From: Arcticibacterium luteifluviistationis
GTDB lineage: Bacteria > Bacteroidota > Bacteroidia > Cytophagales > Spirosomataceae
Assembly (NCBI RefSeq): GCF_003258705.1
Contig: NZ_CP029480.1
Location: 2,170,001 to 2,234,000, forward strand
DNA: 64,000 bases
Direction of reading: 5' to 3'
Below, piece after piece: positions 52,397 to 61,767 of the stretch (positions are counted from its first letter, which is position 1; each line of letters begins with the position of its first letter). The notes under the pieces were generated by a model that was not told the DNA's origin, made no database searches, and saw nothing but the letters and a program-made list of their open reading frames with translations. The position numbers and the translations under genes are program-made.

Positions 52397-53704
52397 ATGC
52401 CTTTAGTTATAGCCCTCCTCGGAATTTTAGCCTTAATTCTGCTAATAGCCGTTGTCAAACTCGACACTTTTTTATCTTTCGTAATCGTATCTCTAGGGAT
52501 AGGGATAGCCAGTGGGCTCGATGTAATAGAAGTCGGGAATGCCATCCAAAATGGTATTGGCGGCACATTAGGAGACCTGACGCTTATTATTGGTTTTGGA
52601 GCCATGCTCGGTAAATTAGTAGCCGAAAGTGGTGCAGCATCTAAAATAACAGATGCTCTCTTAGATAAAGTAGGCACTAAAAACCTTCAATGGGGATTAG
52701 CTTTAGCTGGTTTTATAATCGGTATCCCATTATTTTATAATGCGGGTTTTATCATTGTTATTCCTTTGATTTTCGCAGTGGCTCAGGCTTCTGGTTTTAA
52801 TATGCTTTATGTGGGTATTCCTATGTTGGCTTCACTTTCTGTAGCTCATGGTTATTTACCTCCACATCCATCGCCAGCCGCTATTGGTATTCAGTTAAAC
52901 GCTGACTTAGGTAAAACATTAATTTATGGTTTAATAGTGGCAATTCCTGCCATTGCCATTGCAGGTCCTATTTTCGCTAAGACTTTAAAGAATTTCGATA
53001 TAACTCCTGACCCAACTATTTTCGGTTTCAAACCAGTTCCTAAAGAGCTTCAGCCGGGTTTGGGCATCAGTCTTTTAGTAGCATTAATGCCTGTAATTCT
53101 GCTTTCTGCTGGTTCAGTTATCAAAGGATATTTTCCAGACAATCAGTTCGTACTCTTAATAGCTCAGCCCTATTTCGGGATGCTTATCTCTGTGTTTTTT
53201 GCCGTTTATTTCTTAGGAATAAAACAAGGAAGAAACTTAGAGGATGTGTCAAAATCACTGGCTGAATCTTTTAAAGATATTGCTGTCATATTATTGATTA
53301 TTGCCGGAGCAGGAGCTTTGAAAGAGATTCTTTCTGCTTCAGGTACCAGTACTTATATAGGCGAAATGCTTCAACACGTAAACATTAATCCATTACTATT
53401 AGGATGGGCCACGGCAGCTTTTATTAGAATATGCGTTGGTTCAGCTACAGTTTCAGGTTTAACAGCTGTAGGAATCTTAGCACCTCTTTTTGGCTCCCAG
53501 CCTGATTTCCAACCCGAACTAATGGTACTAGCAATAGGCTCAGGTAGTTTAATAATGGGTCACTTAAATGATGGTGGTTTTTGGCTTTTTAAAGAGTACT
53601 TCAACCTATCCGTTAAAGACACCCTAAAAACCTGGACAGTGATGGAAACACTAGTTTCTGTAGTTGGTTTGATTGGTGTTATGCTTTTGAGTTTGGTGGT
53701 TTAA
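52397..53704 (+). CDS. gntP: GntP family gluconate/organic acid permease
   Basis: The 435-residue polytopic protein has about twelve hydrophobic segments and the GntP pattern: GIGGTLGDLTLIIGFGAMLG, IGIPLFYNAGFIIVIPLIF, SVAHGYLPPHPSPAAIG and RICVGSATVSGLTAVG. It takes up gluconate or a related hydroxy acid by H+ symport across the inner membrane. No gluconate kinase is adjacent. Confidence 0.93.
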   Translation: MPLVIALLGILALILLIAVVKLDTFLSFVIVSLGIGIASGLDVIEVGNAIQNGIGGTLGDLTLIIGFGAMLGKLVAESGAASKITDALLDKVGTKNLQWGLALAGFIIGIPLFYNAGFIIVIPLIFAVAQASGFNMLYVGIPMLASLSVAHGYLPPHPSPAAIGIQLNADLGKTLIYGLIVAIPAIAIAGPIFAKTLKNFDITPDPTIFGFKPVPKELQPGLGISLLVALMPVILLSAGSVIKGYFPDNQFVLLIAQPYFGMLISVFFAVYFLGIKQGRNLEDVSKSLAESFKDIAVILLIIAGAGALKEILSASGTSTYIGEMLQHVNINPLLLGWATAAFIRICVGSATVSGLTAVGILAPLFGSQPDFQPELMVLAIGSGSLIMGHLNDGGFWLFKEYFNLSVKDTLKTWTVMETLVSVVGLIGVMLLSLVV

Positions 53705-53729: not shown

Positions 53730-53793
53730 AAAAAACTAAAACCAAGACCCTCTCAAAAAAATAATAGGTTTTAAAGAGGCTTGGTCTAGTTTT
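53730..53793. terminator. Long imperfect inverted repeat after gntP
   Basis: Left arm AAAACTAAAACCAAG (near 53731) and right arm CTTGGTCTAGTTTT (53780-53793) pair with one or two mismatches, and CCTCT/AGAGG extends the stem inward. It is probably the gntP terminator. Confidence 0.6.
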
Positions 53794-53871: not shown

Positions 53872-55518
53872 ATGCAACTTATACAGACCAATCCTTTTAG
53901 AATAGCTGGAATTCTCTCCAATGCTACAGAAAGAGAACTTCAAAAACAAAAGGCCAAAATAAAAGCCTATTCAAGAGTAGGAAAAGAAGTTAAGTCTGAT
54001 TACGATTTTCAAATCCTTAACGATATTACAAGAACCGAAGATTCGATAAATAAAGCATTCTCTAGAATTGAACAAAACGAAGATAAAGTAAATTTCGCCT
54101 TGTTTTGGTTTTTAAATGCCAATCCATTTGATAACACTGCAATCGACTACTTGAAAAACGGCCATGAAGAAAAAGCAGTTGAGATATGGGAAAAAGTAAC
54201 TTTTAATAAGGAAATAAGTTCTAAAAACTTCTCATGTTTTAACAACTTAAGCACTCTATACTTTCTTCTAAATGATGAATACTTTCTTATTAAAGGAATA
54301 GAAACAAAAATTAAACTGATTGAATCTGAATACTTTGAGAGCTTTGTTCATTCTGTTGCAGATGAAACCTTTACCATTGACAATGAAAAACAAATTGAAA
54401 AAATGGTTGATGAATTGCTAACGCAATTCAAAAACCAATACTCAAGTTCTGATACATTAGAATTCTTTAGCAATTGCAACGGTTCAACACAAAACTATCT
54501 TTCTAAGAAATTTACCGAAGAACCCCTACATAGAATTGAAAATCAAATTGAAGACACCAAAAAGAAGAGAAACGAGAACAAACTTCAAGCGTACAAATTT
54601 GGATTAAAACTATTCACTGACACCAAAGATGACTTATCTGTTTTAAAAACTTTACTTGGTTCAAAAGACTTAAAATATAAATCAATAGCTGACCAATTAG
54701 CAAATGAAGTAATCCAATGTAGTATCGATTATTTCAATAAAAGCCAAGAAAATAATTCCAAAGACAATTACTTAAAATCAGCTCAAAAATTAACAAAACT
54801 AGCTAAGTCTATTGCAGTTGGAAAACTGGCAAAAGATAGAGCAAAGGATAGCCTATCGACTCTTGAAGAAATGAAAGACCAAGAGGTAAACAAAGCTATT
54901 GCACTATTGAATTATATTAAGTTGCAATACGAAAACGCTATCAGTGAAATTGATGACCAAGTTTCTGATATGAGAATGACAATGTCATATAATCAAACCA
55001 TCAATTATTCTAAAGTGGAAAAAAGAAAGGCAAACTGTTTAGATTGGTCAAAAGTTGTTGAAGTCGTTGGCGAAGGGATTACTATGAACGACATTACAGC
55101 AATACAGCGTTGCTCAAATCAGAGTAAAGTTTCCGAATATAAAAACCTAGTAGATTTTTTGTTTAGCAAACTTGGTCCAATTCACATAAATCAGCTTAAG
55201 TATATCTGTTTTTGGAAAGACGTTAAAGCAGCTCAAGCCAAATCTACGGCTAAAAAAGTTGGCTCAACTATCAGTACTGCAACCGATGGAGGTTGTTACA
55301 TTGCAACAATGGCTTATGGAGACTATGACCATCCACAGGTAATAGAGTTACGGAAATTTAGAGACATTTTTTTAAGCAAAACTGTAGTTGGAAGGGCTTT
55401 TATCAAATTCTATTACAGGTATTCTCCAACCCTAGTAACAAAGCTAAAGAACAAACAAAATATCAACCTCATAATCCGAAAAGGATTAAACCAATTTATT
55501 AAAGCAATCAAAAAATAA
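53872..55518 (+). CDS. CFI-box C-terminal domain protein of the Hsp70 cluster
   Basis: The 548-residue soluble protein begins QTNPFRIAGILSNATEREL, a start I associate with uncharacterised Bacteroidota proteins encoded beside Hsp70-like genes. The middle is long, helical and charged, with a TPR-like feel but no clean repeat. The C-terminal domain (473-548) starts GGCYIATMAYGDYDHPQVIE (Cys475) and continues with LRKFRDIFLSK and FIKFYYRYSP. This is the CFI-box-type C-terminal domain, of unknown activity. It overlaps the next gene by one base and heads a six-gene run. It might be an adaptor or J-protein substitute; inference. Confidence 0.75.
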   Translation: MQLIQTNPFRIAGILSNATERELQKQKAKIKAYSRVGKEVKSDYDFQILNDITRTEDSINKAFSRIEQNEDKVNFALFWFLNANPFDNTAIDYLKNGHEEKAVEIWEKVTFNKEISSKNFSCFNNLSTLYFLLNDEYFLIKGIETKIKLIESEYFESFVHSVADETFTIDNEKQIEKMVDELLTQFKNQYSSSDTLEFFSNCNGSTQNYLSKKFTEEPLHRIENQIEDTKKKRNENKLQAYKFGLKLFTDTKDDLSVLKTLLGSKDLKYKSIADQLANEVIQCSIDYFNKSQENNSKDNYLKSAQKLTKLAKSIAVGKLAKDRAKDSLSTLEEMKDQEVNKAIALLNYIKLQYENAISEIDDQVSDMRMTMSYNQTINYSKVEKRKANCLDWSKVVEVVGEGITMNDITAIQRCSNQSKVSEYKNLVDFLFSKLGPIHINQLKYICFWKDVKAAQAKSTAKKVGSTISTATDGGCYIATMAYGDYDHPQVIELRKFRDIFLSKTVVGRAFIKFYYRYSPTLVTKLKNKQNINLIIRKGLNQFIKAIKK

Positions 55519-56438
55519 TGAAGAACATCATACTAATCACACTCCTGTTGGGGGCATCAAACGTTTTTGCTCAACAGTCTCAAGACTCTACTCTGTTAGA
55601 CCAAATACCAGAAATAAAGAACAGCCTTCTTCAACAGAGTCAGGAGATTGATAAATTGAAACGTAGTTTAAAAGGGCAAAACCTTTTAGTTTCAAAACAA
55701 AAAGAATCAATCGGTTCCTTAAATGCTTCTATCGATAGCTTGGAACAATACATCTCACTTAATAAGAGAAATATAGAAACAAACTCCAATCAATTAGGTA
55801 CAGAAATTGAAAAAGTCACCTCTTCTACTAATTCTCAAATCATCAAACTAGATAGCAGTTTGGAAAAAAACCGCTTGTATTGGATTATAGCGACCTTGGC
55901 AACACTTTTATTAGGGGGGCTGGTTTATTGGCTACTGGGCAAACGTATCCAATCGAGCAAAACAGATGTGGAGACCCAAATAAGAAATACCAAAACCGCA
56001 CTAGAAGAAGAAAGTGTAAAGTTGGATAATAAATTAGTCGAAGTTTTAGAAACTCAATTAAAGTTAAAGCAAGAAGAGACGAAAACTCAGCCAAACATAT
56101 CATCTGAAAAAGCGGACCATTCTTTAGCCTTAAAAGTTGCAGATGAAATAATACGAATTCAGAAAAACTTAAGCCGAATGGATGATAGTACCAAGGGCTT
56201 AAAACAATTGAATTCATCTGTACAACGTATCCAAGATAACTTTGCAGCCAATGGTTATGAATTAGTAGAAATGCTTGGTAAAGAGTACAATGAAGGAATG
56301 AAAGTAACCGCAAATTTCACTCCAAGCGAAGATTTAGAAACTGGAAAACAAATTATATCAAGAATTATAAAACCACAAGTAAACTTTAAAGGTGAGATGA
56401 TACAAGCGGCTCAAATTGAAGTAAGTGTAGGTGAATAA
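55518..56438 (+). CDS. Membrane-anchored coiled-coil protein with GrpE-like C-terminal head
   Basis: The 306-residue protein has a signal peptide (residues 1-18), a periplasmic coiled coil (about 25-118), one transmembrane helix (YWIIATLATLLLGGLVYWLL, 121-140), then a cytoplasmic coiled coil (145-240). The compact end at 246-306 (GYELVEMLGKEYNEGMKV, IISRIIKPQVNFKGEMIQ, AAQIEVSVG) resembles the beta-rich head of GrpE, the Hsp70 nucleotide exchange factor. With the Hsp70 gene 11 bp downstream, I infer an exchange factor that tethers Hsp70 to the inner membrane. The similarity is by eye. Confidence 0.65.
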   Translation: MKNIILITLLLGASNVFAQQSQDSTLLDQIPEIKNSLLQQSQEIDKLKRSLKGQNLLVSKQKESIGSLNASIDSLEQYISLNKRNIETNSNQLGTEIEKVTSSTNSQIIKLDSSLEKNRLYWIIATLATLLLGGLVYWLLGKRIQSSKTDVETQIRNTKTALEEESVKLDNKLVEVLETQLKLKQEETKTQPNISSEKADHSLALKVADEIIRIQKNLSRMDDSTKGLKQLNSSVQRIQDNFAANGYELVEMLGKEYNEGMKVTANFTPSEDLETGKQIISRIIKPQVNFKGEMIQAAQIEVSVGE

Positions 56439-56449
56439 AAATATATAAA

Positions 56450-58975
56450 ATGGCAAGAACAAAAATTGACTACGGAATAGACTTAGGAACCACTAACTCC
56501 GCTATTTCCAGAATGGAAAGTGGAGAAGCAACCATTAAAAAAACAGACACTTTAAAGGATACTATGCCTTCTAGTGTATTTATCAACAAGAAGAAAGCAA
56601 TTCAGGTTGGGGATAGTGCATATAACGCTCTAAAAAGAGATAAACTGAAAGCTATGAAAACCTGGAATGACTCCGATTCCAATGCTTACATTGAATTTAA
56701 GAGAACAATGGGTTCTGATAAAACCTATTCAAGTTCAAACCTTGGAAAAGGCTTAACTTCGGAAGAGTTATCAGCAGAAGTGTTAAAAACATTGAAGTCT
56801 TTTATAAAAGATGAAAATGTCAACTCCATTGTTATTACAGTACCAGCAGCTTTTAAGAATAATCAAAAAGAAGCAACAAGAGAAGCAGCAAAACTAGCTG
56901 GCTTCAATCATATAGAATTGCTGCAAGAGCCAGTTGCCGCATCCATGGCTTATGGCTTAGACTCAAACAAAAAAGATGGCTTTTGGTTAGTGTTTGACTT
57001 TGGTGGTGGAACTTTTGATGCTGCTCTTTTGAAAGTTGAAGAAGGTATTATGAAAGTTATAGATACCGAAGGAGACAACTATTTAGGCGGTAAAAACTTG
57101 GATTTTGCAATTGTTGATGAAATCATTTTGCCATATATCCAAGAGAACTTTACAATTGATACCATTTTGGCTAATGATTCCAAAAAGCAAATTTTGCGTA
57201 ATGCGATGAAGTTCTATGCAGAAGAAACCAAAATCAAACTTTCATTTAACGACACTCACAATATTTTATCGGATTTAGGAGATATTCCCGGAGAAGATGA
57301 TGAAGGAGAAGAATTTGAATTAGATATTACTGTTACACAAACAGATATTGAGAGAGCACTTTCGCCCGTTTTCCAAAAAGCAATAGACGTTAGTAAAAGC
57401 CTTTTAGAACGTAACAATTTAAAAGGTTCTTCTTTAGACTCGCTAATACTTGTTGGAGGTCCAACTTTTTCGCCAGTTTTACGAAAAATGTTAGAAGGTC
57501 AAATTTGCAAGCCCGACACAAGTGCAGACCCTATGACCGTAGTTTCTAAAGGTGCCGCGTTGTATGCTTCCACAGTTAACGTTTCGGACGAGGTAAGAGA
57601 GCAAACAAGAGATAGAACTAAAATCCAATTAGAAATTGCAAACGAATCTTCTACTGTTGAAACAGAAGAGTTTGTACCAATCAAAATTTTAGCAGATAAA
57701 ACGGAAGGAAAAATTCCCGAAAAAGTATTTGCAGAAGTTACCAGAGGTGATAAAGCTTGGTCAAGTGGGAAAATAGAAATAAATACTATCGGTGAAGTTA
57801 TTGAAATTCAACTGAACGAAGGGAAAACAAATATTTTTGATGTTGTTTTATATGACGACAAGGGAGATATTTTAGAAAGTGAACCTACAAATTTTAGTGT
57901 AATACAAGGTTCAAAAATTGGAAGTGCTACATTAGCCTATAATGTTGGGATAGAGATAAAAAGTAAATCAACGGGAAAAATAATCTTTACCACTGTCAAG
58001 AATTTAGAAAAAAATCAATCTATTCCAGCAATTGGTACGAGAAACGGTTTAAAAACCCAAAAGCAAATTCGCCCAGGAATGGATTCTGATTTCATAAAAA
58101 TACCTGTTTATGAAGGAGAACACAATGCTGAAGGTACAAGAGCTATCTATAACGAACACGTTACAGATATTATAATAAGTGGTGCAGATTTACCTTCATT
58201 ATTACCTGAAAATAGTGATGTAGATTTAACCGTAAATATTGATAGGTCTGAACAAATTACAGTTACTGCCTATTTTCCATATTTAGATTTCACTTATGAT
58301 GCAACCGTAGAAAGAACCGTTTCTTCAATCGAAACGTCTTGGTTAGCTAATGAAATACGAAAAGCAAAAGGCAGTATTGCAGAATTAAAACAAGACGGAA
58401 ATTCTGATGATGCTAAACTTCAAAAAATTGAATCCGAATTAGAGCAGTTAGAAAAGTCATTTGAGAACAATAAAAATGACGTTGATGGTAAACAAGAAGT
58501 TTTAACGAATTTAAGAAAATCTTTAAAAACGATTGACGAACTGAACGAAACAACAGAATGGCCAAAATTAGAAGAAGAACTAAAGGAAGAGTTTTACAGA
58601 TTAGAAAAAGCCAATGATGAACTTGGTAATGAAAAGACCTCCGAAGTGGTGAATCAATTACGGTTACAACTAGATGAAGTCATAAAGGTAAAAGACGTAA
58701 AACTTGCCAATATTCTTTTAGAGGAAACCCGCAGCTTATTTGTTCATTTAACTTTAATTTACCAGCTTATTGGTTTCATAGGTCGTCATAATGACAATTT
58801 TGAATCATACAACTGGACTGATAGAGATAGAGCTAAAGCTCTCTTAAATAAAGGTCAACAAATTATAGGTGAGAATCCAGATGTTGACGAATTACACCCA
58901 CTGGTTGTTTCTATAATAGACTTGTTACCACGTAATGAAAGACCAAGTGGTGACGATACAGTTTTGGTAGGATAA
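56450..58975 (+). CDS. Divergent Hsp70 (DnaK-like) protein with extended C-terminus
   Basis: The 841-residue protein has a complete Hsp70 ATPase domain: phosphate-1 GIDLGTTNSAI (9-19), connect region LLQEPVAASMAYGL (157-170), phosphate-2 VFDFGGGTFD (181-190), adenosine motif LILVGGPTFSP (332-342). An insertion with acidic GEDDEGEEFE lies at 281-290. After about residue 390 the protein departs from DnaK. It has extra beta segments and a long helical/coiled-coil tail (about 640-800), and ends PSGDDTVLVG rather than in a DnaK tail. Housekeeping DnaK is about 640 residues. It is thus an accessory Hsp70, partnered with the GrpE-like protein upstream. Confidence 0.88.
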   Translation: MARTKIDYGIDLGTTNSAISRMESGEATIKKTDTLKDTMPSSVFINKKKAIQVGDSAYNALKRDKLKAMKTWNDSDSNAYIEFKRTMGSDKTYSSSNLGKGLTSEELSAEVLKTLKSFIKDENVNSIVITVPAAFKNNQKEATREAAKLAGFNHIELLQEPVAASMAYGLDSNKKDGFWLVFDFGGGTFDAALLKVEEGIMKVIDTEGDNYLGGKNLDFAIVDEIILPYIQENFTIDTILANDSKKQILRNAMKFYAEETKIKLSFNDTHNILSDLGDIPGEDDEGEEFELDITVTQTDIERALSPVFQKAIDVSKSLLERNNLKGSSLDSLILVGGPTFSPVLRKMLEGQICKPDTSADPMTVVSKGAALYASTVNVSDEVREQTRDRTKIQLEIANESSTVETEEFVPIKILADKTEGKIPEKVFAEVTRGDKAWSSGKIEINTIGEVIEIQLNEGKTNIFDVVLYDDKGDILESEPTNFSVIQGSKIGSATLAYNVGIEIKSKSTGKIIFTTVKNLEKNQSIPAIGTRNGLKTQKQIRPGMDSDFIKIPVYEGEHNAEGTRAIYNEHVTDIIISGADLPSLLPENSDVDLTVNIDRSEQITVTAYFPYLDFTYDATVERTVSSIETSWLANEIRKAKGSIAELKQDGNSDDAKLQKIESELEQLEKSFENNKNDVDGKQEVLTNLRKSLKTIDELNETTEWPKLEEELKEEFYRLEKANDELGNEKTSEVVNQLRLQLDEVIKVKDVKLANILLEETRSLFVHLTLIYQLIGFIGRHNDNFESYNWTDRDRAKALLNKGQQIIGENPDVDELHPLVVSIIDLLPRNERPSGDDTVLVG

Positions 58976-58988
58976 AACGAGAATAATA

Positions 58989-59687
58989 ATGAATAACAAA
59001 CTACTTTTCCCATATCTACTTTTTGCTTCCTTATTGTTTTGCTCTTGCGAAAGTTCAAAAGAACGGGAAGCTAGAGAATTTGCAGAAGAGCAGCATCTTA
59101 TAGAACAAGCTGAAAAAAAAGCTCTTGAAGAAAAAGTTTTAGCTCAGCGAAAAAGAGAAGCTCAAAGAGAAAGAGAGAAAAGGTTAGAGCAAGAACGAAT
59201 TGAGCGTGAAGCTATTCTTGAAAAAGAAAGACAAGAAAGAGCTATTTATGATAGATACATAAACAACTCCTTAAAAACCGGCTCCATGCCTTACGCTAAG
59301 TATTTTGGTTCCAATAATTCTTGTCATGATAGTTATGGCTGTTCTCAGATTTCAGTGCAAACGCCATCCAATTCTGATGTAATAGTGACAATAAAGAAAG
59401 ATGGTCAAGTTTTCCGTCATGCTTATATAGAGGCCAACAGCAACTTCACGTTCAACATGCCTAACGGAACCTATCAGCCTTTCTTTTATTATGGAACAGG
59501 ATGGAATCCTAAAAAAATTGTAAAAGAAACTGTTTATGAAACGCTACAAGGAGGATTTATAAGTTCTGAACATTTTGGTAAAGATTCACCACAATTTTTA
59601 AGTAGCAACGTATTAAGTTACGAGTTAGTTTTACAACAAAATGGGAATTTCAGTTCTAAACCAAGTAGCTCTGAAGAAGCGTTTTAG
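58989..59687 (+). CDS. Lipoprotein with charged coiled coil and C-terminal beta domain
   Basis: The 232-residue protein has a lipoprotein signal with lipobox FCSC (Cys20). Residues 22-90 form a Glu/Lys/Arg-rich single helix or coiled coil (KKALEEKVLAQRKREAQRER). A C-terminal domain at about 100-220 (CSQISVQTPSNSDVIVTIK, HAYIEANSNFTFNMPNGTYQ, FFYYGTGWNPKK) looks like a small beta sandwich. I do not recognise a published function. It ends directly against the kinase-AAA+ gene start, so the two are coupled. It would give the cluster an envelope component. Confidence 0.75.
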   Translation: MNNKLLFPYLLFASLLFCSCESSKEREAREFAEEQHLIEQAEKKALEEKVLAQRKREAQREREKRLEQERIEREAILEKERQERAIYDRYINNSLKTGSMPYAKYFGSNNSCHDSYGCSQISVQTPSNSDVIVTIKKDGQVFRHAYIEANSNFTFNMPNGTYQPFFYYGTGWNPKKIVKETVYETLQGGFISSEHFGKDSPQFLSSNVLSYELVLQQNGNFSSKPSSSEEAF

Positions 59688-61454
59688 ATGAGAAGAAAAG
59701 AAGATCCCATACTATCCGCAGACCAAATAATTGGGAATAAATACACCGTAAAATTTTTCCTTAAAAAAGGAAATTACGCAGAAACATATCGCGTAAAAGA
59801 CCAAAAAGGTAAAACGAAATCATTAAAACTATTCTCCTATTCCAAATTGAATAGAACGCAATTTGATGACAACGATAATATTCTTGAAATAGAAATTTTA
59901 AAGAAAATCAAGCACCCAAATTTGGTTGCCTATTGCGATAGCGGAGAACTCCTTTTAGAACATCAAAAATATGCTTTTGTAATTCTCGATTTTATCAGCG
60001 GTGAGACATTAGCGGATAAAATGAAACGTGAACAAACTTTCAATCCTTATGACGCTAAAGACATAATCTCAAGCGTTTTAAATGGCTTGAATTATTTACA
60101 TAGCCTTGAAAACCCTATCATTCATAATGATATTACAAACTTAAATATTATGTCTGACCTGTCTGGAAAGATAGCAATTCCTAAAGTCATTGATTTTGGT
60201 TATGCCCGCTATTTAAGTCAAACGAATAAAGACTTTTTAAAAGAAGGCCTAAACCCATTTTACCAAACAAGTGAAAGCTTTAATAAAGTATTTTCGGCAC
60301 AAAGTGACATCTTTTCTGCCGGTGCTTTATACTATCATTTATTAGCTGGTTTACCGCCTTGGTTTATAGAAATTTCAAAATACAAATCCGACAGAATAAA
60401 ACTGGAAGACGCGGTTTTGGAGGAACGTAAAAAAACTTTAAAATTTGAAAACAATATAGATGAAAGCACACAAAGAATCATTACCAAGGCATTACAACCG
60501 AATGCTGAAGACCGATTTAAAAATATAAAGGAATTTATTCAAGCTATAAACGGAGAAATAGAAGTTCAGCAACTTTCCGTTACACAAGAATCATCCAAAC
60601 CAAAAAAAAAGCATGCCAAGGACGGTAAGGGGTTCAAAGCCATAGCAGGGATGCAAGAGCTAAAAGATACCATTCAATTGGATGTAATTGACGCCTTAAA
60701 CGATAAAGAAAAATACGAAGAATATGGCTTGACTATCCCTAATGGAATGTTACTCTATGGCCCGCCAGGCTGTGGAAAAACCTTTTTTGCCGAACGAATG
60801 GCTGAAGAAATTGGGTTTAATTTCTATCAAATAAAACCTTCTGATATTCAGAGCAAATTTGTTAACGCTTCCCAAGAAAACATTAAAAACCTTTTTGATG
60901 AAGCTCGTAAAAATGCACCGAGCATAATTTTCATTGATGAGTTAGATGCGTTAGTTCCTAATCGGGATAATTCCAGTGTAAACCATATGAATACAAGTGC
61001 TGTAAATGAATTTTTAGCACAAATGAATAATTGTGGTGATGATGGTGTTTTTATTATAGGAGCGACTAATAGACCCAATTCAATTGACCCCGCCATATTA
61101 CGAGCTGGCCGTTTGGATAAAATCACCTACCTCCCGCCTCCAGACCACGAGGCTCGTGAATTAATGTTTAAACTCTATTTAGAAAAACGGCCAAGAGAAA
61201 TTGGTTTAAATTATTCCGTCTTTGCTAAGGCAACGGAAAATTACGTTTCGAGCGATATTAAATTTTTATGCGATGAAGCTTCAAGAAGAGCTCTCAAATT
61301 AAACTCAAGAATTTCATCAGATATAATTTTAGACACTATTGCAAAAAACAGACCTTCTATTACTCTCAAAGAGTTAAACAGCTACATAGCTATAAAAGCA
61401 AAAATGGAAGGACAAGTAGACAATAATACCGGAAACCAACAAATTGGTTTTTAG
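59688..61454 (+). CDS. Ser/Thr protein kinase fused to AAA+ ATPase
   Basis: The 588-residue protein has a Hanks-type kinase domain at about 15-285: variant glycine loop LKKGNYAETYRV, K47 (KSLKLF), catalytic loop HNDITNLNI (D148, N153; HND in place of HRD) and DFG at 169-171. The AAA+ domain at about 318-575 has Walker A GPPGCGKT (358-365), Walker B IIFIDELD (413-420), the sensor-1 motif ATNRP and LRAGRLDK with candidate arginine finger residues R472 and R475. The ATPase resembles FtsH/Cdc48-type unfoldases. All active-site residues seem present in both halves. No transmembrane helix is seen. Confidence 0.9.
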   Translation: MRRKEDPILSADQIIGNKYTVKFFLKKGNYAETYRVKDQKGKTKSLKLFSYSKLNRTQFDDNDNILEIEILKKIKHPNLVAYCDSGELLLEHQKYAFVILDFISGETLADKMKREQTFNPYDAKDIISSVLNGLNYLHSLENPIIHNDITNLNIMSDLSGKIAIPKVIDFGYARYLSQTNKDFLKEGLNPFYQTSESFNKVFSAQSDIFSAGALYYHLLAGLPPWFIEISKYKSDRIKLEDAVLEERKKTLKFENNIDESTQRIITKALQPNAEDRFKNIKEFIQAINGEIEVQQLSVTQESSKPKKKHAKDGKGFKAIAGMQELKDTIQLDVIDALNDKEKYEEYGLTIPNGMLLYGPPGCGKTFFAERMAEEIGFNFYQIKPSDIQSKFVNASQENIKNLFDEARKNAPSIIFIDELDALVPNRDNSSVNHMNTSAVNEFLAQMNNCGDDGVFIIGATNRPNSIDPAILRAGRLDKITYLPPPDHEARELMFKLYLEKRPREIGLNYSVFAKATENYVSSDIKFLCDEASRRALKLNSRISSDIILDTIAKNRPSITLKELNSYIAIKAKMEGQVDNNTGNQQIGF

Positions 61455-61473
61455 CTTAATTCTAAAGAACGCA

Positions 61474-61767
61474 ATGAATAATAAAATAAAAATTGGCCTA
61501 GCCCTTCTACTATTTCTATGTTTATTGGATATGCCCTATGGTTTTTATCAATTTGTTCGGTTCATAGCACTAATTGGATTTAGCATTTTAGCATATTCCG
61601 CAAGAAAAGATGGTCATGAAACTCAAATGATTGTATATGGTGGACTAGCACTTCTCTTCCAACCATTTTTTAAGGTCACACTTGGCAGAGAGCTTTGGAA
61701 TATTATAGATGTAATTATTGGGCTTGGATTAATAATTAACTACCTCAAAAGTAGTTCAAAGAGTTAA
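61474..61767 (+). CDS. Small membrane protein, DUF6804-like
   Basis: The 97-residue protein starts at ATG 61474; an in-frame TTG at 61444 would overlap the kinase gene and is less likely. It has three or four short hydrophobic segments (IGLALLLFLCLLDMPYGFYQ, RFIALIGFSILAYSARKDG, MIVYGGLALLFQPFFK, IDVIIGLGLIINYL). The MPYGFYQFVRFIAL words match the DUF6804 type. It follows the kinase-AAA+ gene by 19 bp and is the last gene of the cluster. Function unknown. Confidence 0.75.
   Translation: MNNKIKIGLALLLFLCLLDMPYGFYQFVRFIALIGFSILAYSARKDGHETQMIVYGGLALLFQPFFKVTLGRELWNIIDVIIGLGLIINYLKSSSKS

Follow-up and report, generated by a model that had tools for sequence, protein, structure and literature searches.

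Hsp70 cycles are usually regarded as housekeeping, and the set of DnaK, DnaJ and GrpE with ClpB (the bichaperone disaggregase) combines an Hsp70, a J-type protein, a GrpE-type protein and an AAA+ motor. Proteins of these types also occur in predicted conflict or immune systems. Kaur et al. 2020 (PMC7159879) describe conflict systems centred on a GAP1-N2 GTPase, with HSP70, GrpE and DnaJ-FNIII, predominantly in Actinobacteria and Firmicutes; CoCoNuT type IV restriction involves an Hsp70-like protein, CnuD, with degenerate Walker A-like motifs, partnered by McrB-type GTPases and nucleases, and some extended CoCoNuT operons have a CDC48-like SpoVK ATPase (PMC11090510); and bNACHT25 requires host DnaJ (PMC12169576). 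Here I describe a cluster of six plus-strand genes (A to F, positions 53872-61767) in a window of 64,000 nucleotides, that is, the whole stretch of DNA analysed, from Arcticibacterium luteifluviistationis. The cluster is real and conserved, and it encodes a divergent Hsp70 with a J-like, a GrpE-like and a kinase-AAA+ protein. The reading that I favour, at slightly less than an even chance, is that of a horizontally mobile, membrane-tethered Hsp70/AAA+ protein-remodelling machine, most likely anti-phage.

The tight packing noted in a preliminary description, made from the sequence alone, was confirmed by the listing of open reading frames (ORFs): A and B overlap by 1 base, E begins directly after D, and 11, 13 and 19 bases separate the remaining neighbours (19 if F starts from its ATG). 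The genes and their parts are as follows.

53872..55518, plus strand: gene A, J-like N-terminal domain, TPR-like helical solenoid and C-terminal CFI-box (ORF; CFI_box_CTERM 4.5e-22)
53872..54201, plus strand: J-like domain of A, residues 1-110, without HPD (hhalign to J-domains)
55294..55515, plus strand: CFI-box of A, about residues 475-548 (domain scan and pattern across relatives)
55518..56438, plus strand: gene B, putative membrane-spanning GrpE-like protein (model with predicted local distance difference test score, pLDDT, of 82; Foldseek GrpE)
55518..55571, plus strand: predicted signal peptide of B, residues 1-18 (hydrophobic N-terminus; FAQ-type end motif in many relatives, by eye)
55587..55874, plus strand: predicted periplasmic coiled coil of B, residues 24-119 (part of the model helix 24-190; putative topology)
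55875..55940, plus strand: membrane helix of B, about residues 120-141 (hydropathy 2.03)
56112..56435, plus strand: GrpE-like head of B, residues 199-306, probably cytoplasmic (VIA-align to 1dkg_A)
56450..58975, plus strand: gene C, divergent Hsp70 of 841 residues (Pfam HSP70 1.6e-58, residues 9-384)
56450..57601, plus strand: nucleotide-binding domain of C, ATPase motifs intact (Pfam and motif residues)
57602..57910, plus strand: extra module of C, about 100 residues, between the two Hsp70 domains, limits approximate (alignment)
57911..58309, plus strand: region of C aligning with the DnaK substrate-binding beta domain, limits approximate (alignment only)
58989..59687, plus strand: gene D, lipoprotein with a charged coiled-coil-like stretch, variable slot (lipobox LFCSC by eye)
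59688..61454, plus strand: gene E, kinase-AAA+ fusion (Pfam kinase 5.1e-35, AAA 9.2e-39)
59709..60551, plus strand: Ser/Thr kinase domain of E, with its catalytic residues in place in the window copy (Pfam, residue check)
60636..61316, plus strand: single CDC48-type AAA+ domain of E with an aromatic pore residue (CDC48 the top NCBIfam match; best PDB match Cdc48)
61474..61767, plus strand: gene F, DUF6804 small membrane protein (Pfam 5.9e-34; ORF listed from TTG 61444)

How does this set compare with the described systems? Unlike DnaK-DnaJ-GrpE with ClpB, it is one mobile operon with a putatively membrane-spanning GrpE, a J-like domain without HPD and an Hsp70 carrying an extra module of about 100 residues, and a single CDC48/FtsH-type AAA+ domain fused to a kinase is found instead of two ClpB-type AAA+ domains. 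The GAP1-N2 systems resemble it in joining an Hsp70 with a GrpE, there together with a DnaJ-fused protein in operons predicted to act in conflict, but by Pfam the six genes encode neither a GTPase nor an FNIII domain and the two do not fit. The likeness to CoCoNuT is an Hsp70-like protein in a predicted immune system and the CDC48-like ATPase of the extended operons; here, however, the ATPase motifs are intact, no McrB-type GTPase or nuclease was found by Pfam in the six genes, and there is no fit. The AAA+ half of E has IetA of the IetAS system as its top PADLOC match (5.1e-34). The protease IetS is the partner of IetA, whereas Pfam shows no protease in the six genes, and E is a kinase fusion beside Hsp70, J-like and GrpE-like proteins. 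The vWA protein and PP2C phosphatase of the TerY-P triad were not found among the six genes by Pfam, the kinase standing alone, and E scores 106.7 bits for the MAD6 kinase of MADS against an NCBIfam cut-off of 460. Membership of A to D and F in a PADLOC system was rejected; A, B and C give weak matches, D and F none. A literature search, with most subscription papers outside its coverage, found no published description of the operon and none for "CFI-box". A word search of the main text of the DefensePredictor paper (PMC13092281) found no Hsp70, DnaK, GrpE, DnaJ or chaperone.

A conserved cluster at a variable site

Relatives were collected in one scan of genome contigs with an alignment of gene B, by which 164 were found and the best 80 kept. 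Neighbouring genes were called with family profiles built from a few loci; the counts are conditional on B, some relatives are close, and L018, L020 and L021 (L numbers are locus labels) were omitted because they lie on the same contigs as L050, L061 and L082. The preliminary description had proposed such a neighbourhood comparison, and the genes do co-occur in other genomes: the Hsp70 gene lies downstream of B in 76 of the 79 testable loci, A upstream of B in 66 of 71, and E follows B in 62 of 65. In 55 loci E is complete and more than 1.2 kb of sequence lies beyond it; 45 of these have a TerB-like gene (T) within 1.5 kb behind E, and 34 have F nearby. A D profile match is present in 23 of the 80 loci. 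The TerB-like gene, a usual member in relatives, is absent from the window; the TerB-like protein of H. hydrossis exceeds the Pfam TerB cut-off (26.4 against 24.4 bits), while three others fall below it. Nine gene pairs drawn from A, B, C, E, T and F show correlated distances between loci (Mantel r 0.47-0.87, p 0.001, shared vertical descent being included in these values).

The operon is rare. In a draw of the class that was blind to operon content, strong matches to B were found in five of 394 other genomes, and six more matches (E 7e-5 to 8e-4) resemble chance coiled coils. An equally blind draw of the phylum also gave strong matches in five of 394 other genomes; four of these have A-B-C-E, three of them with T, and the fifth shows no more than a B-like stretch within an ORF at a contig edge. 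Homologues of B without an Hsp70 neighbour were seen in L088, L089 and L091. A KilA-N protein (L071:5826-6710, KilA-N 4.4e-21) has family members in L032, L063, L064 and L108; over these five loci the family lies within the operon in three and nearby in two.

At its left the cluster is bordered by a gene outside the system:

52397..53704, plus strand: gntP permease, left border of the variable site (synteny leftward kept in three family relatives)

In three other members of the family, whose gntP is 82-89% identical, the gene order left of gntP is conserved and the cluster does not lie right of it; this absence refers to the site beside gntP. In one of them a match of window gene 62791 lies about 9 kb past gntP with other genes between. 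Thus, the interval between gntP and 62791 is a variable site.

Properties of the encoded proteins

The labels that the preliminary description gave to A, C, E and F agree with the domain scans, and its GrpE-like reading of B has now been tested by fold. It had also set the system apart from housekeeping dnaK and grpE, which holds: besides a canonical dnaK (C1:705659), the host genome, a single contig of 5.38 Mb, carries paired grpE and dnaJ genes (C1:373629-374396) and encodes another J-protein. Thus, gene C is an accessory Hsp70, and the possibility that it is the sole DnaK of the organism is ruled out.

The Hsp70 identity of C is well supported by its sequence. The phosphate and adenosine motif residues are kept in all 73 relatives, and K84, R85 and T188 are invariant in 18 aligned sequences. 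The extra module is present in Bacteroidota and Proteobacterial members and gapped in the host's own DnaK; it is followed by the stretch that aligns with the substrate-binding beta domain and then by a long tail. This region lies beyond the Pfam and PDB matches shown, which end near residue 384-401. In five loci (L061:13487-15943, L039:14320-16935, L071:3260-5887, L078:14090-15610 and L108:13512-15590) the intact Hsp70 is followed by another one, whose first phosphate motif is degenerate and which is possibly an Hsp110-like partner.

Gene B is GrpE-like by fold, and the predicted model supports this well. The model has a single helix (residues 24-190), then two helices and a beta domain. The top 12 PDB matches in a Foldseek search are all GrpE (4.3e-5 to 7.1e-3, seven at E<=0.001), as local matches with a template modelling score by query of 0.19-0.29, presumably because the long helix differs. 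With VIA-align, residues 199-306 match 1dkg_A at Z 8.1 and a root-mean-square deviation of 3.5 over 103 residues; BAG domains and other helical bundles reach up to Z 9.8, mainly via helices. The B protein of the window has no match to the Pfam GrpE profile. Among its relatives 13 of 68 match at E<1, the best value (7.4e-7) being the lowest among 25 families listed; some coiled-coil-type families match more members than GrpE does, and the list leaves out which stretch GrpE matches. A comparison of B with the host's own GrpE as a single sequence was negative, and a PDB profile search gave mainly coiled coils among the 60 matches shown. The predicted signal peptide, coiled coil and one membrane helix would make B a transmembrane GrpE. 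I know of no GrpE carrying a signal across a membrane.

The preliminary description had called A a CFI-box protein, which stands, and a J-like N-terminal domain and a solenoid can now be added. The predicted model is all-helical (pLDDT 87.5), and its middle part appears TPR-like by weak PDB matches, many of them to TPR or solenoid proteins. Residues 6-30 align with 28 J-domains (hhalign score 26.0, P 2.3e-4) over 25 columns, in the register of helices I-II only; the best of 100 column shuffles scored 20.9, ten other windows of A at most 11.6, and reversed J-domains 12.1. Foldseek gave nothing for A at E<=0.001, and DnaJ is absent from the matches shown, which excludes nothing for the J-like part; a PDB profile search gave nothing below E 0.04, and the 25 Pfam families listed for 49 members do not include DnaJ. 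I hold the J-like assignment with moderate confidence: A may work like a J-type adaptor, and it is not classed as a J-protein. By pattern and crude hydropathy, the C-termini of 69 relatives comprise 22 CFI-boxes, 23 membrane helices and 24 others. Since the CFI-box and the C-terminal membrane helix replace one another, this suggests that the CFI-box is a membrane-association module.

The AAA+ identity of E is well supported. Its best NCBIfam match is CDC48 (1.9e-54, below the cut-off of that model). All 67 relatives retain the Lys of Walker A, the Glu of Walker B, the sensor Asn, the second Arg finger and an aromatic pore residue, and 66 retain the first Arg finger. The conserved function is that of the motor. 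At the position of the kinase catalytic Asp the same relatives have D (39), E (17), N (6), G (4) or R (1); the VAIK Lys is kept in 62 and the DFG Asp in 58. The kinase is likely often a pseudokinase in relatives, while that of the window looks intact. Kinase signalling as the core function was rejected, since the catalytic Asp is kept in just 39 relatives while the AAA+ residues are conserved. Thus, of the phosphorylation and unfoldase parts proposed earlier, the second stands and kinase activity is hardly central.

Gene D gives no Pfam match at E 0.01. The lipobox agrees with the coiled-coil lipoprotein first described, but its slot in the operon is variable. A secreted 181-residue protein occupies the slot in L033 (13494-14039) and likewise in L034, L037, L041 and L047; an SH3_3 domain was found in both of the two scanned (8.6e-9 and 6.5e-9). 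For F, the ATG at 61474 suits the relatives better than the TTG at 61444 (alignments start at residue 9-11).

Mobility and the wider Proteobacterial family

The closest plasmid relative is that of H. hydrossis pHALHY02, where A, B, C, E and TerB adjoin brxL and pglZ. In L023 (732-7709) a SIR2 protein and two WD40 proteins are encoded upstream of this copy and the BREX genes downstream. Near the operon, nine loci have a member of a phage-integrase family and five a member of a relaxase family; Pfam confirmed one member of each. No mobility gene was found among the scanned neighbours of the window copy. In Shewanella (L027), an operon of the Proteobacterial type lies directly behind Tn7-like tns genes. 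A phage-borne origin of the Bacteroidota form was rejected; B has no relative in the viral contig collection, and, of 43 phage records, the 20 listed have an Hsp70 match that reaches no further than residue 384.

Proteobacterial plasmid relatives of C are 28-33% identical over the matched part and 23-26% over the whole alignment, and a gene of about 117 residues lies immediately upstream of the Hsp70. Compared with the GrpE head of B, the profile of this small protein scores 51.9 (8e-9); in the control run it scored 51.7, and the best of 60 shuffles 18.1. By this profile comparison the two are homologous. A search with the small protein of E. coli gave 13 plasmid records, in 11 of which the match abuts the Hsp70 match; the other two are outside the 20 records shown for the Hsp70 search. 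The J-like proteins of these operons match the N-terminus of A over their first 62 columns (P 4.5e-5, a value without shuffle control).

The order GrpE-like, Hsp70, AAA+, membrane protein (helix by eye) and J-like was found in E. coli HeN100 (L199), Shewanella (L027), L201-L203 and L205. L204 begins at the Hsp70 and has the same order from there on; other plasmids vary. Five of these copies (L201-L205) come from contigs of the viral collection. Among the plasmid loci, L026, L027 and L028 have an E-type AAA+ gene next to the Hsp70. Common to all the opened Proteobacterial loci are Hsp70, GrpE-like and J-like genes, the J-like gene of L024 being one weak match; in most of the Proteobacterial operons an AAA+ gene accompanies them. 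Only two of 5426 E. coli genomes have any match, and the second has no Hsp70, with an insertion sequence (IS) element in front of a shortened AAA+ gene.

Defence neighbourhood and rival explanations

Stress, envelope quality control and defence had all been proposed in the preliminary description, and of these defence gains from the flanking genes, an E. coli island and the plasmid BREX genes, with envelope quality control competing with it. For the flanking genes, the nearest protein of 150-900 residues was taken on each side; 113 were chosen, the plasmid copy L023 included, and seven from loci without the full operon (L089, L091, L088, L022) were dropped, leaving 106. As a control, 106 of 138 proteins from 14 random stretches were used. 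At 1e-10 the flanking proteins match 147 PADLOC families and the random ones 21. At E<=1e-60, at least seven of the 106 flanking proteins have a match (a lower bound from 25 of the 147 families) against none of the 106 controls (best 2.9e-50; Fisher p 0.014). Six are identified as GajA, BrxL, PbeA, MTase_I, HEC-06/Orf5 and PDC-S27; SspB and PDC-S22 matches do not appear in the tables of these six and thus belong to at least one further protein. The core is shared with operons in defence islands. The island around the E. coli HeN100 operon holds cbtA and the matching antitoxin gene, together with an antirestriction gene, rdrB of RADAR, part of a YfjP GTPase and a remnant of dptF; in Polaromonas zorA is about 4 kb distant from the operon.

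On the reading of a mobile, membrane-tethered remodelling machine, the Hsp70 would bind a client in the cytoplasm, and A, held at the membrane by its CFI-box (by a membrane helix in relatives), would deliver or scaffold it. The GrpE-like head of B, if the modelled fold is a guide, may promote ADP release from C. Nucleotide exchange could depend on the state of the envelope, because B would have its coiled coil in the periplasm, on the far side of the membrane and close to lipoprotein D. The client would then be passed to the AAA+ motor of E and pulled apart, the kinase domain acting as a regulator or docking module. The client would most likely come from a phage, as a protein or a complex encountered at the inner membrane, giving anti-phage action by protein disassembly with no nuclease. 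A defence role as such is close to a toss-up. A further-reaching version is possible and somewhat doubtful: the operon would be a new form of prokaryotic immunity, present in two or more phyla, whose private Hsp70 cycle is gated through the inner membrane by a transmembrane GrpE and coupled to a CDC48-like motor that dismantles phage protein complexes.

Several observations weigh against a defence machine of this kind. The 1e-60 cut was picked after the control had been seen, and up to 99 of the 106 flanking proteins have no PADLOC match at that cut. Accessory genes of many kinds collect at variable sites, and the genes flanking the window copy are metabolic. Within the six genes, the good PADLOC matches are those of the generic kinase and AAA parts of E only, and no nuclease or toxin was recognised by the Pfam scan. 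HPD is present in none of 69 relatives of A, and the Proteobacterial J-like profile barely matches true J-domains (P 0.006). The E-type AAA+ gene is missing beside the Hsp70 in L024, L025 and L029, that is, three of the six opened Proteobacterial plasmid loci; thus, not every member of the wider family has the motor.

The main rival, which I consider rather unlikely, is envelope quality control, where B and the lipoprotein would sense misassembled envelope proteins and the Hsp70 and AAA+ proteins would extract them from the inner membrane. A Cdc48-type motor extracts proteins in endoplasmic-reticulum-associated degradation, and the membrane-spanning B, lipoprotein D, membrane protein F and CDC48-type AAA+ domain all suit such a task, as do the membrane protein of the Proteobacterial operons and the secreted protein with an SH3 domain that takes the place of D in five relatives. 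However, a housekeeping need should be commoner than five of 394 other genomes in the phylum draw, with a patchy distribution; the operon lies at a variable site here and elsewhere on a plasmid, behind Tn7-like genes or near integrase and relaxase genes; and defence genes are among its neighbours. A chaperone module serving the recombination, conjugation or replication complexes of its carrier element would explain the nearby integrase, relaxase and Tn7-like genes and the copies on viral-collection contigs, but it is improbable given that the carriers are of unrelated kinds and that the scanned neighbours of the window copy include no mobility gene. A general stress disaggregase for heat or oxidative damage, a spare DnaK-DnaJ-GrpE-ClpB set, accords with the full range of functional types (Hsp70, J-like, GrpE-like, AAA+) but is improbable, with HPD absent, a membrane-bound exchange factor, a single CDC48-type AAA+ domain instead of ClpB and a patchy distribution.

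To return to the remodelling machine, an Hsp70 cycle would here travel in one cassette with J-like and GrpE-like partners of its own and with an unfolding motor, in some genomes amid defence genes, and its exchange factor would be built into the membrane. It may be an undescribed bacterial anti-virus strategy; if the operon is immune in function, it would represent defence through protein disassembly, and the natural E. coli copy makes this directly testable.

In the window, the G+C content of the cluster is 33.8% against 37.0% overall. Matches to a sigma-70 promoter pattern (22 against 27.8 by chance) are not above chance, and those to a terminator pattern are in slight excess (9 against 5.7 expected, standard deviation 2.3). 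Two candidate promoter sites, matching the Bacteroidota motif TAnnTTTG, lie upstream of the cluster at 53787 and 53838.

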